A stretch of DNA of 64,000 bases from Methylacidiphilum infernorum V4 (lineage in GTDB: Bacteria; Verrucomicrobiota; Verrucomicrobiia; Methylacidiphilales; Methylacidiphilaceae). The notes under the pieces were generated by a model, which saw only the letters and a list, made by a program, of their open reading frames with translations, did not search any database and was not told where the DNA came from. The stretch covers positions 1 through 64,000 of the forward strand of contig NC_010794.1 in assembly GCF_000019665.1 (NCBI RefSeq), in the 5' to 3' direction. The position numbers were made by a program, and so were the translations under genes. This document shows positions 47,890 through 59,290 of the stretch, piece after piece. Position 1 is the stretch's first letter, and each line of letters opens with the position of its first letter.

Positions 47890-48495
47890 TTATGTCGAAG
47901 GATGAGGATGTCTTTTTTCCCTTTCAAGTCTTTGAATGGCCTTGTGTATGCGATTTAAAGTTAAATCGACATTATCGAGATTTTTTTCTACTTCGTAGAG
48001 ATTCCCCGACTTGTCGTAAATGAGTATCTGGGTTGAGTTTTTAGCCACTCCGAAATCTCGGGTGAGTGTGCCGTTATAGTCAATGACAGGAAAAGGCCTG
48101 GAGTGTTCATCAAAATGCTTTTTTATATGGGAAAGAGCCATGGCTTTAAAAAAGCCCGCATGCGAAATATCTTCAACTAAAATAAGAGCTACCTCGCTGG
48201 GAAGCTTGGTTTTAGGATCTTCCCCGAGAAGCTTTGCCCATTTTTCCTGTTTTCTGCCTTGGCTCATGTTGGGTACGGAAACAATGAAAACAGAAATTTT
48301 CCCGATGAACATCTCCCGGGGATGTTTTATCCCCAAGGGATCGATTAAAAAAGGAAAGGGAAGATGGTGGGCGTATCCCTCGTAAGGGATCCAGCCATGA
48401 GAAGAGGGTTTATCCGCGGCCATCAGGGCAGAAGAAGGAAAGATTGAAAAGAGCAAAAAAAGGGTGAGTGTTGGGCAACAACAACTTTTATTCAT
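47890..48495 (-). CDS. Secreted thioredoxin-fold protein lacking CxxC
   Basis: A 201-residue protein with a clear signal peptide (CCCPTLTLFLLFSIFPSSALMAA). The mature part looks like a peroxiredoxin/thioredoxin-type fold: KISVFIVSVPNMSQGRKQEKWA, FPVIDYNGTLTRDFGVAKNSTQILIYDKSGNLYEV, the last being the usual beta-strand pair after the cis-Pro region. No redox-active CxxC is present; the only cysteines are in the signal peptide. A non-catalytic chaperone or binding role is possible but unknown. It is divergent from moaC. Confidence 0.65.
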   Translation of the reverse strand: MNKSCCCPTLTLFLLFSIFPSSALMAADKPSSHGWIPYEGYAHHLPFPFLIDPLGIKHPREMFIGKISVFIVSVPNMSQGRKQEKWAKLLGEDPKTKLPSEVALILVEDISHAGFFKAMALSHIKKHFDEHSRPFPVIDYNGTLTRDFGVAKNSTQILIYDKSGNLYEVEKNLDNVDLTLNRIHKAIQRLEREKRHPHPST

Positions 48496-48690
48496 GAGAA
48501 GAAGAGGGCTTTTTAGGCGCCCGGTTTTGTTGACTTTTAAGAGCTAACGGCAACTGTAAGCTATTCGACAAAGCAAGGAACCACATGGAAGGGGGCAGAC
48601 GTTTCTCTTTTTTAAAGAAAACATTTTTGGTTGTTTTGTTGTGAAATTACCTTAGTCTAATAAGTTTTAGAAAAAAGTCATCGCCTTTTT

Positions 48691-49164
48691 ATGGAAGAAG
48701 AAGCTTCAAAAAATGCAAAAACTTTTTTTTCCCATCTTTCCGCTTCGGGTGAAGCGAGGATGGTCAGGGTGTCGGAAAAGCATGAACAAAAAAGAACTGC
48801 CGTTGCCGAAGGCTTTATCACTCTTTCCGGGAAAACTCTTGAGCTATTGAAAGCTCGTGCCATTCCTAAAGGAGATGTTTTAACCCTTGCCAAGGTTGCT
48901 TCTATTATGGCTGCAAAGAAAACGGCGGAATTGATCCCATTGGCTCATCCTATCGGGCTGAGCTTTGCTGACACTACTTTTGAGATTGAAGAGAAAGGGA
49001 TAAGAGTGGTGTCAACGGCGGAGTCGGTTGCCAAGACAGGCGTGGAGATGGAAGCTCTTGTGATGGTTGCTATTGCGGTTTTGACCCTTTATGACATGTG
49101 TAAAGCCGTAGATCAATCCATGGTTATTGGTCCAATCAAGCTCCTCGAAAAGAAGAAAGCATGA
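48691..49164 (+). CDS. moaC: Cyclic pyranopterin monophosphate synthase MoaC
   Basis: MoaC completes conversion of GTP to cyclic pyranopterin monophosphate in molybdenum cofactor synthesis. The 157 residues include KGDVLTLAKVASIMAAKKTA, LIPLAHPIGLSFADTTF, the KTGVEMEALVMVAIAVLTLY block and DMCKAVDQSM with the catalytic lysine. Length is normal. Its stop overlaps the next gene, another cofactor gene. moaA and moeA are not in the window. Confidence 0.95.
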   Translation: MEEEASKNAKTFFSHLSASGEARMVRVSEKHEQKRTAVAEGFITLSGKTLELLKARAIPKGDVLTLAKVASIMAAKKTAELIPLAHPIGLSFADTTFEIEEKGIRVVSTAESVAKTGVEMEALVMVAIAVLTLYDMCKAVDQSMVIGPIKLLEKKKA

Positions 49165-49664
49165 AAATCGGTCGTGTGACGCTCAGTGACAGGGCAGCGG
49201 CAGGGATATATAAGGATGAAAGCGGTCCAGAAATAGAGAGGGTGATCAGCAATCTCTTTGAAGAGCCGGTGGAGTTTGTGTCGGTATTGATCCCCGATGA
49301 TAAAGAGCTGCTCATATCCCAGTTTATTCGGCTTGTGGACGAGCTGGACTGTCCTCTTGTTTTGACTACGGGGGGTACAGGTCCAAGTGCAAGGGATATT
49401 ACTCCTGAAGCGACCAAGGTTGTCCTGGATAAGGAGCTGCCCGGCTTTGGAGAAATCATGAGAATGGAGTCTTACAGGAAGGTAAAAACGGCCATTTTGT
49501 CCCGTGCGATAGCGGGCATACGCAAGCGATCGTTGATCGTCAACTTGCCGGGGAAACCTTCGGCAATTTCTGAATGCTTATCGTTATTGGGAGAAGCCAT
49601 TGTCGAATGTTTAGATCATATTCGTGGCTATAGACCTACTTTATCCAACAAGCTGCATCCCTGA
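49161..49664 (+). CDS. Molybdopterin adenylyltransferase MogA/MoaB-like
   Basis: A 167-residue protein of the MoaB/Mog fold that adenylates molybdopterin before metal insertion. Motifs: RVTLSDRAAAGIYKDESGP, the TTGGTGPSARDITPEAT nucleotide loop, GFGEIMR and NLPGKPSAISECL. It overlaps the moaC stop by 4 bases (ATGA), implying translational coupling. MogA and MoaB cannot be separated reliably from sequence; MogA is slightly favoured by the size and the closing segment. Confidence 0.9.
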   Translation: MKIGRVTLSDRAAAGIYKDESGPEIERVISNLFEEPVEFVSVLIPDDKELLISQFIRLVDELDCPLVLTTGGTGPSARDITPEATKVVLDKELPGFGEIMRMESYRKVKTAILSRAIAGIRKRSLIVNLPGKPSAISECLSLLGEAIVECLDHIRGYRPTLSNKLHP

Positions 49665-50195
49665 AGCCGGCCTGAAAAAATTTAAATCCACTTTGAGCTT
49701 ACGTCGGTGATGAAGAAAGGTTGACATTTTTAAAAATTCTATAAACATAACGAGAAGAGCTGTTGAACTGTTGAAGGATGCATTGCAATTTTTTGAGCAG
49801 CGCTGGAAAAATGGCCCAAATGAACCATTAAAACCGATAGATGTAGAGATGGGGAAAAAAATCGAACCGAACTGGTTCCAACTTCGTTGCTTTGAGTTGA
49901 TGGCGAGGGTTTGAACAGTTGATTAATGAGTTGATCTTTTTTATACTTTACCTCGAGTTGGCCGTCTTGAAGAGCCCTACGGCCAGTTCCGCCGGAAGGC
50001 AGGCCTGTGGAGAGGAAGGCTCTGGCCTGGTGCGAACGGGCCGGCCGCATCCAGCCTCGATGAGTAAGTCTGTCAGCTTTGCCCCTGTTTGAGCAGCAAT
50101 GAATAAGTCTGACGGAACGGAAATTGCGTGGCAACCCCACAGTCAGGGTTGGTTTTTAAAGAAATTTTTAGATGTATAAATAAAGGCAATTTACG
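49665..50195. other. Decayed intergenic region with repeat copy B and a LysR-like fragment
   Basis: About 530 bases without an intact gene. On the minus strand near 49739-49825 a short frame reads HLGHFSSAAQKIAMHPSTV, reminiscent of the first helix-turn-helix of LysR-type regulators, then stops; it may be a truncated gene end. About 49960-50120 is the second diverged copy of the repeat seen at 26.44-26.59 kb. Within it, ATGAGTAAGTCTG (50059-50071) and ATGAATAAGTCTG (50099-50111) form an imperfect tandem pair. The rest shows nothing I can assign. Confidence 0.45.
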
Positions 50196-50527
50196 CTCTA
50201 GGTCTCCTTCCGCAAGGGAGGGGATACGGGGCGTCGCCCGCAAGGGTGGGGTAGACGGAGAGCCGGTTCTGCCTTGGATGATCGCATGGAACATCAGCTA
50301 GACAAAGGCAGCCGTTCCGTCTATATTGCGGGGAGGGCTCACCCCTATAGGGGTGGTAGGATCGGAGCGAGCCCAAGCTTGCGCCTGTGGTGAAGGCGCT
50401 TGTGCGGGGCACCCTCGGAAGAGGGTGTTCGCCGTTCCCCGCAGATGCAGGAAACCCTTGCGGTTCCTCCGGGTGGGAGTAATCCCTACCGGAAGCTCCG
50501 TCCGTGGGGAGGGGAGCTAAACTCTAG
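50196..50527 (+). ncRNA. Structured GC-rich RNA, HEARO/omega-RNA-like
   Basis: A roughly 330-base GC-rich stretch folds into many hairpins on the + strand: 50206-50221 (loop GCAA), 50235-50248 (GCAA), 50252-50323 (8-bp base stem plus 7-bp inner stem), 50340-50355 (CACCCC/GGGGTG), 50381-50399 (GCGCCT/AGGCGC), 50403-50443 (7-bp stem enclosing a second 7-bp stem with loop GGAA), 50469-50492 (loop GTAA) and 50494-50518 (AGCTCC/GGAGCT). Four GNRA tetraloops fix the strand. CTCTAG occurs at both edges. It directly precedes a transposon remnant; HEARO RNAs, the guide RNAs of IscB, look like this, but I could not compare with a model. No IscB gene is present. Confidence 0.6.
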
Positions 50528-51075
50528 TATTGCAAATAGTGCGTAATGGTGTATTATGTAGGGCATGGAAAGCACTATGAGCACGGGCCGGGCGGCCAAG
50601 CTGCTGGGGGTCTTGGTCAAGACCATGCAGCGATGGGAGCGTGAAGGCCGACTAATTCCTGCGGTGCGGACCGACAGCAACCGAAGGCTTTACACCGAAT
50701 CACAGCTTCGTGATTTTCTCGGCCTGCGCCATGCGGTGTCCGAGCCGACGCGGCTCATCATCGCCGATCGCTGGTATCCGAGCAGTCGCCTGTGTTCGGT
50801 TTGCGGGTGGAAGAACGAGGCGCTGACGCTCAAGGATCGGAGCTGGACGTGTCCCGAGTGCGGCACGCACCACGACCGCGACTTCAACGCGGCGCTCAAC
50901 CTCAAACGGCTGGCAACCGCAACTGCCCTACCCGTGGCGAGTCCGTCTGGTAACAGCGGCACTGCGGCAGAGATGGTCTCTGCCGTAGTCGGGAAAGTTA
51001 CGCCTGTCAGAGACGATTCCGTTGAGGAATCGGGGCAGGAAGAGAACAGTGCGCACCTTTGCGCATGTTTTTGAT
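50528..51075 (+). mobile_element. Internally deleted IS607-family element
   Basis: A GC-rich block, clearly richer than its neighbours, contains a single open frame combining both IS607 genes. Near its edges are imperfect inverted repeats: GCAAATAGTGCG at 50532-50543 and, reversed, GCAAAGGTGCGC at 51051-51062; the match is GCAAA plus GTGCG. The exact ends are approximate. The full element should be about 2 kb; the middle of both genes is missing. It may be mobilised by intact relatives elsewhere in the genome. Confidence 0.6.
50565..51074 (+). CDS. Chimeric IS607 TnpA N-terminus / TnpB C-terminus
   Basis: A 169-residue fusion. Residues 1-60 or so ([35 protein letters not shown]) are the MerR-like HTH start of the IS607 serine recombinase TnpA. 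From about residue 66 the sequence switches to the end of Tnp[37 protein letters not shown], giving the four-cysteine zinc ribbon and the last RuvC Asp. The recombinase core with its catalytic Ser and most of the TnpB RuvC domain are missing, so neither enzyme can work. The frame is kept open across the junction. It may be a decayed remnant or a DNA-binding regulator. Confidence 0.85.
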
Positions 51076-51110
51076 AGCAGGTTAACAGCCATTTCTAGAA
51101 AAAATTACTT

Positions 51111-51557
51111 ATGAACGAAGGAAATAAAAAGACAGCACCAACGGTTTTTGAAATTGAAGAAGGAAACCAACTTCTAGCACGATTCGATCTTTACGAATTT
51201 CTTCCTTGTATAACCCTGGATGCGGAAACCGGGGAAGTGCTTATGCTTGGTTACATGAACCGGGAAGCCTTGGAAAAAACCATACAGAGCGGCCTTGCAA
51301 CCTATTACAGCCGATCGAGAAAAAAAATTTGGGTCAAGGGTGAAGAATCCGGTTTTTTCCAGCACGTTCAAGATATTTTCATTGACGATGACCAAGATAC
51401 CTTGCTTTTAAAAGTAAGAGTCGATGGAGGTGCTTCTTGCCATGTGGGTTACAGGAGTTGTTTTTATAGAAGGTTAAAAAAAGGGAGCAGCAAGGAACTG
51501 GAGTTTACTGAAACTCACAAGGTCTTTGATCCTAAAGTCGTTTACAAGCATGGCTGA
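51111..51557 (+). CDS. hisI: Phosphoribosyl-AMP cyclohydrolase
   Basis: HisI opens the adenine ring of phosphoribosyl-AMP in the third step of histidine synthesis. The 148-residue protein has DAETGEVLMLGYMNREALEK, TYYSRSRKKIWVKGEESG and the metal region DDDQDTLLLKV then CHVGYRSCFYRR. The usual DCD reads DDD here, so one of the three zinc cysteines is replaced by Asp; the other two, in CHVGYRSC, are kept. The gene starts 36 bases after the IS607 remnant, whose insertion could affect its expression. No other his gene is in the window. Confidence 0.93.
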   Translation: MNEGNKKTAPTVFEIEEGNQLLARFDLYEFLPCITLDAETGEVLMLGYMNREALEKTIQSGLATYYSRSRKKIWVKGEESGFFQHVQDIFIDDDQDTLLLKVRVDGGASCHVGYRSCFYRRLKKGSSKELEFTETHKVFDPKVVYKHG

Positions 51558-59079: not shown

Positions 59080-59174
59080 AAAGCTAGATCATCCTCTTTT
59101 TTCTTTTCCTAAAAAGAAGAAAGGTTATTTTTATTGCGCAATTTTTTAAATTGAGTTATAAATACTATTTATAG

Positions 59175-59272
59175 ATCCGTGGGGGAGCCTTTATGGCTGA
59201 GAGGTTTCCCTTAATGAAGAGGGAAACGACCCTATGAACCTGATCCGGATAATGCCGGCGGAGGGAAAGGAT
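59175..59272 (+). promoter_or_regulatory. TPP riboswitch (THI element)
   Basis: The conserved elements are present in order: GGGGGAGCC, CTGAGA (59197-59202), a variable hairpin GTTTCCC/GGGAAAC (59204-59210, 59221-59227), ACCC, GAACCTGATCCGGATAAT and GCCGGCGGAGGGAAAGG. ATCC (59175-59178) pairs with GGAT (59269-59272) in the closing stem. It lies 70 bases before thiC and would repress it when thiamine diphosphate is high. A T-rich stretch follows. Confidence 0.95.
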
Positions 59273-59290
59273 GGATTTTCTTTTTTTTGA

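Follow-up and report, generated by a model that had tools for sequence, protein, structure and literature searches.

Elements that consist only of the two ends of an IS605-family insertion sequence, left after deletion of the core, are described as PATEs in Haloquadratum (PMC3119063), and an ends-only sequence of the same kind is reported from Halanaerobium (PMC7290912); MITEs and small RNAs of Coxiella are treated in PMC5896051. For TnpB of the ISDra2 type, the guide is described as following the scaffold of the reRNA, or omega-RNA, at its 3' end (PMC8612924), and RAGATH-18 (RF03064) has been reported as the reRNA of IS607 TnpB, found with IS607 TnpB only (PMC11061315). The genome paper of Methylacidiphilum infernorum V4 mentions one class of IS605-family insertion sequences with about 20 loci (PMC2474590), and a paper on related Methylacidiphilum genomes gives 23 annotated transposases for V4 (PMC6688271). 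We found no open-licence paper uniting MITE, TnpB, guide RNA and IS605 and, going by titles and the openings of abstracts among the matches listed, none on tnpB-less scaffolds in mini-elements.

The locus considered here lies at positions 50196-50527 of a 64,000-nucleotide stretch of the V4 genome (the window), where a previously unassigned, stand-alone structured RNA gene had been predicted. In place of such a gene, the stretch almost certainly represents the two fused ends of an IS200/IS605 element whose middle was deleted, whose ends spread non-autonomously as a PATE, and which is now decaying. The element is ordinary in kind. Like the PATEs of the two papers cited above, it has fused IS605 ends, lacks a transposase and is host to other mobile elements; unlike them as described there, it resides in a thermoacidophilic bacterium and has kept, beyond the end palindromes, a TnpB scaffold of ∼190 nt and a stub of tnpA.

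Genomic setting and parts of the element

Three unrelated mini-elements stand in a row between mog and hisI, each with the scaffold region of a TnpB or the 3' end of a tnpB element. Their parts, in window positions, are as follows; L103 is a full-length relative from an Aquificales MAG.

49161-49664: MoCF_biosynth gene (mog), on one side of the locus
49908-50120, + strand: third mini-element, 213 bp, with GG...GG ends and the 3' scaffold of another TnpB type
50187-50512, + strand: internally deleted IS200/IS605 element (PATE/MITE), found at six other genome places, both halves matching a full IS605 element
50206-50221, + strand: left-end hairpin (CCTTCCGCAAGGGAGG), 6 pairs, with 50 of 54 cells pairing across nine homologues
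50286-50324, + strand: start of tnpA (Y1 transposase), first 13 codons MEHQLDKGSRSVY, from tblastn with L103 TnpA
50324-50325, no strand: deletion junction, ∼1.47 kb of the parent absent (L103 ∼856-2323)
50325-50512, + strand: end of tnpB, overlapping TnpB reRNA/omega-RNA scaffold and right end, from L103 homology and covariation
50513-51080, + strand: mini-IS607, 568 bp, directly 3' of the IS605 element, with six further full-length copies at 98-100%
51111-51557: phosphoribosyl-AMP cyclohydrolase gene (hisI), on the other side of the locus

In all four other genomes of the genus the interval between mog and hisI is short and holds none of the three mini-elements. A promoter-like stretch (TTGACA...) at 49720-49753 is common to the window and to genome G002; in G002 it is close upstream of hisI, and in the window it is now separated from hisI by the three mini-elements.

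Copies within the genome

A DNA search of the V4 genome gave 19 matches, eleven of which correspond to the left end, 28 bases long, of the neighbouring IS607-type element. The others place the element at seven sites: four retain the left end, the stub and the scaffold, two are incomplete, and one is a relic with a broken tnpA (genome positions except for the window copy):

Window, 293937, 2191224 and 206849: the left end, the stub of tnpA and the scaffold
1410728: hairpin of the left end, and the scaffold
768362: a left end recognised by blastn
2068027-2069015: the relic, covered by two of the matches

The copies have diverged, with identities of 66-87%. The junction, TCTAT followed directly by ATTGC, is nevertheless identical in the window, 294-kb and 2191-kb copies, and the 207-kb copy is short of a few bases there; three of the four stub-bearing copies thus lack the core with the transposase at one identical position, from which the fourth deviates by a few bases. 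The 1411-kb copy has a larger deletion at this point. Within the relic, 2068640-2068918 is a decayed tnpA (42% identity over residues 1-95, three stops, E 1.3e-12), and therefore a fuller element was once in the genome. We rejected the reading that an insert interrupts this copy, which is a relic made up of the decayed tnpA and other TnpB pieces.

The heptamer TTTTAAC lies directly 5' of six of the seven copies, as the fixed target of a PATE would. One point against the deletion reading is that the copy in the window itself has neither this flank nor a recognisable right tip.

A DNA search in the genus found the element in one of five genomes, and R1, a covariance model built from the copies, in one of 288 genomes of the phylum (under stricter filters and with five candidates scored per genome, so that weak matches could be lost); both times the genome was that of V4. 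Near-exact DNA patterns matched 0, 6 and 0 stretches of viral contigs, the six giving no R1 match, and a pattern with the RNA's own bases had no match in the genome contig collection. A distant blastn search with the 294-kb copy against plasmids and phages was also negative.

Full-length relatives in Aquificales

An in-frame translation of the conserved 5' part of the 207-kb, 2191-kb and 294-kb copies gives MEYQLDKG... and SVY or a close variant. Searched by tblastn against plasmids, this peptide had three weak matches, of which the best (E 0.5) belongs to a tnpA annotated as IS200/IS605 and containing IDKGCHSVY; two Paraburkholderia matches (E 9 and 10, no annotation) were set aside, and phmmer against PDB found none. 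A degenerate DNA pattern for QLDKGxHSVY led to nine loci in the genome contig collection, on which, together with L071, R1 was run. Four of the nine (L102, L103, L108 and L110), all in Aquificales MAGs, have R1 matches at both the left-end and the right-end place. Matches in L104 and L109 were weak, in tnpA or the left end only, and L071, L105, L106 and L107 gave none.

In L103 the left-end match (739-868, 62.0 bits, E 1.8e-17) runs into tnpA (817-1224), and the right-end match (2331-2518, 101.4 bits, E 2.9e-29) overlaps the end of tnpB (1199-2509) and the right end, as a TnpB reRNA does. The two proteins carry the domains PF01797 (TnpA, E 5e-45) and PF01385 plus PF07282 (TnpB). Both ORFs are open in L110; in L102 tnpA is shortened and tnpB is divided between two frames, and in L108 tnpA is broken.

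Both ends of the window copy are homologous to this one full IS605 element, as are those of a PATE to its parent. The left part is 76% identical to L103 over 139 columns (z 36.9 against dinucleotide shuffles; blastn E 3.6e-18) and the right part 78% over 159 columns (z 44.0; blastn E 3.2e-25, window 50351-50513 with L103 2353-2515, overlapping the end of tnpB). Residues 1-13 of L103 TnpA are found at 77% identity in the window (tblastn E 0.032) and at 100% in the 2191-kb copy (E 2.8e-5). The left match of the window stops at L103 position 855 and its right match starts at 2353; the right match of the 294-kb copy begins at 2324, and the part between the halves was placed by aligning the copies with the parent.

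The window element thus shares with the IS200/IS605 elements L103 and L110 the left-end hairpin, the tnpA start MEYQLDKGCHSVY and the tnpB 3' end with its overlapping RNA scaffold. Its other copies add the TTTTAAC flank, present at three of the four Aquificales copies, and the 294-kb copy adds the right tip, GGTTCAC, common to L102, L103 and L108. It differs in lacking the ∼1.47-kb middle, in its damaged tip and flank, and in sequence: the relatives belong to another phylum and are 71-78% identical to the window copy, depending on the method, and for this reason they do not identify the donor.

The most probable history begins with the entry of an IS200/IS605 element (LE - tnpA - tnpB/reRNA - RE), related to those of the Aquificales MAGs. 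It lost its middle, and the remaining ends then spread as a non-autonomous PATE. By analogy with IS605 biology, a Y1 TnpA acting in trans may have moved the element as single-stranded DNA, excising it and inserting it 3' of TTTTAAC, and the scaffold was probably kept because it overlaps the right end. The transposase is by now gone or broken and the copies have drifted apart; the order of the elements suggests that the mini-IS607 settled later at the right end of the window copy.

In support of such a history, no Y1 transposase was matched by Pfam in the V4 genome, in a search whose control matched in 5 of 14 genomes; all four other genomes of the genus have Y1 transposases. The motif QLDKGxHSVY occurs in none of 30 Y1 loci listed from the genus, several of them shown in the wrong frame.

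Fold, edges and alternative RNA families

Several of the observations behind the original prediction are sound. Folding of the + strand is stronger than expected by chance (z -4.59; none of 100 shuffles did as well), all four GNRA tetraloop sequences are present, and the G+C content of 0.625-0.63 is unlike the 0.345-0.50 of the surroundings (windows from 48000 to 49899); the adjoining IS607 piece is likewise G+C-rich. The - strand, too, folds better than chance (z -5.93), and three other copies fold less convincingly (z -2.20, -3.42 and -0.25). The statement that no gene is encoded holds in that there is no intact gene, but the sequence was once coding, comprising the opening 13 codons of tnpA and the end of tnpB.

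The predicted arms fared differently. Covariation supports the 3' half, the GGCACCCTC/GAGGGTGTT arm included. The long 5' arm at 50252-50323 has no such support: its positions, which are the left end and the start of tnpA, pair in 71.7% of cells over nine homologues against 71.2% in shuffled columns, and 213 of 500 shuffles attain its three pairs with two-sided change. Slid versions of the arm pair less well (30-54%), as is typical when a structure comes from one row. The left-end hairpin has two pairs with two-sided change and recurs in the Aquificales left ends.

CTCTAG does stand at 50196 and 50522, where it had been taken to mark both edges, but the real element runs from ∼50187 to 50512. 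The first CTCTAG lies within the left end of the element, where other copies read GCTCCAG or GCTCTATG; the second lies within the left end of the neighbouring mini-IS607, a left end with copies elsewhere, and the pair is therefore a coincidence. A mobile element does adjoin the stretch, as had been said, but what was called a transposon remnant is a different, young 568-bp mini-IS607.

The fold is real, but it makes neither a new stand-alone RNA family nor a HEARO. The proposal was of a HEARO/IscB omega-RNA that stands alone and has its guide at the 5' edge, and the size of ∼300 nt, the strong fold and a neighbourhood rich in transposon pieces would suit it. HEARO/IscB omega-RNAs are also guide RNAs of IS200/IS605-type elements, serving another nuclease family than TnpB from another position in the element. 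We consider this assignment extremely improbable: both halves are explained by a tnpA-tnpB element, and RF02033 has no match in the window at the gathering score, or around the locus at E up to 10, setting the element apart from the family it was said to resemble. The RRXRR domain of IscB is also without a match in the genome, a weak test as 14 control genomes are equally without one. The idea of a transposon-linked, guide-like RNA was right to the extent that the sequence is linked to a transposon and holds the scaffold of an RNA-guided nuclease, but the family and kind were wrong. GNRA loops and a long fold of many helices might equally recall a group I or group II intron; given the IS605 origin, and no intron family in Rfam at the gathering score (window) or at E up to 10 (locus), the chance that the stretch is an intron remnant is vanishingly small. 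The same Rfam searches gave no other relevant family. Elsewhere in the window, a TPP riboswitch was found at 59171-59283 (72.9 bits, gathering score).

With the assignment to fused IS605 ends, one apparent lead to a new structured RNA family proves false, and a more general caution follows: a strong, GNRA-looped fold next to mobile elements can consist of IS605 or IS607 ends brought together by a deletion.

The 3' scaffold as TnpB guide RNA

The 3' half is, by homology and covariation, the scaffold of a TnpB reRNA/omega-RNA. On nine sequences (six copies and three from Aquificales) a 47-pair structure has 90.4% of its cells paired, and 11 of the 47 pairs show two-sided change, a number reached by 0 of 500 shuffles, with slid versions 43.5-52.6% paired; the structure was derived from the same alignment on which it was tested, which favours it. 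A TnpB-type scaffold overlaps the tnpB 3' end, and because of this any guide would be expected at the 3' edge, as described for ISDra2 (PMC8612924), and not at the 5' edge as first supposed. Like the ISDra2 reRNA, the 3' half is homologous to a tnpB 3' end plus right end; unlike it, the window element has no tnpB in cis.

A comparison with RAGATH-18 gave scores for the parent below the cut-off of 44.9 bits (30.7 in L103 and 30.5 in L108), and no match to the window copy at E up to 10. Both ends of the RAGATH-18 consensus, CCTGTGG...GCAGGAA, occur in the 3' half, but they do not pair with each other in the consensus fold obtained here, and the parent is an IS605, not an IS607, element. A copy of the third mini-element, at L005 2508-2574 (genome ∼1411735-1411801), has a weak RAGATH-18 match of 26.3 bits against the same cut-off.

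The window element is most likely a decaying, functionless relic, since it has no transposase, no cognate TnpB and no right tip, and since its copies have drifted. There is a hint to the contrary in the scaffold alignments, where pairing may have been retained above pure drift in diverged copies. The scaffold half is more diverged than the left-end and tnpA-stub half (66-74% against 74-87% identity among four copies), and this holds in all six pairwise comparisons, in one by a single point. Over five copies of the V4 genome the scaffold pairs nonetheless in 91.3% of cells, and six pairs show two-sided change against 2.9 in shuffles, a number reached by 8 of 500; five rows are a weak control, the shuffles ignore relatedness, and three of the six pairs fall in the poorly aligned helix 1.

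On this evidence one might suppose that the mini-element is kept as a source of guides, its scaffold being transcribed, loaded into TnpB made elsewhere and used by the element or the cell. Pairs retained in five tnpB-less copies, in the half that diverged more, are what would be expected, as is the retention of the 3' end of a tnpB element by all three unrelated mini-elements side by side. Possible partners exist, in that eight genome places align with the TNB domain model from its position 1 or 2 through to its last. (A weak TNB match in a long frame at 328 kb reads, by eye, like a DNA methylase and was discarded.) None of them is cognate, however, the best-scoring TnpB match in the genome being only 37% identical to the TnpB of the parent. 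The window copy lacks the right tip, the place beside which a guide starts, half of the two-sided pairs come from the poorly aligned helix, and the overlap of scaffold and right end means that retention needs no guide function. We therefore think it very unlikely that the element serves as a guide source, and prefer to regard it as a relic. It is likewise unlikely, if not to quite the same degree, that the three non-autonomous families of TnpB derivatives keep working scaffolds by using the TnpB of other copies; were this true, mini-elements would hitch-hike both on transposase and on the RNA-guided cutting that restores the element after excision.

The mild interest of the locus arises because three unrelated, adjacent mini-elements all retain the TnpB scaffold region. 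A TnpB guide scaffold can outlast tnpB in fused ends of this kind, and a single genome here supplies a small, testable set of tnpB-less scaffolds for the use of TnpB in trans by mini-elements.

Neighbouring mini-elements

The mini-IS607 is, to judge from its sequence, young and the product of a deletion at a 12-base repeat. Its ends match five longer copies at 98-99% with a 12-base overlap, and the repeat, ACGCGGCTCATC, is found on both sides of the deletion; three of the longer copies measure 2030, 2030 and 1902 bp. An open ORF at 50565-51074 (169 aa) fuses the MerR helix-turn-helix of TnpA to the zinc ribbon of TnpB (Pfam MerR and Cas12f1-like_TNB). The TnpA of one longer copy has MerR and Resolvase domains, as expected of an IS607 TnpA. 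The mini-IS607 starts at the GG of the right end of the IS605 element, whose missing tip is not recognisable beyond it, and in the 1411-kb copy another IS607-like piece occupies the same spot.

The third mini-element has at least 17 other genome places at 75-88% identity (40 of 102 candidates scored), 16 of which were used in its alignment. Its 3' sequence also follows tnpB at two loci (L039 and L040) and a broken tnpB at a third (L038).
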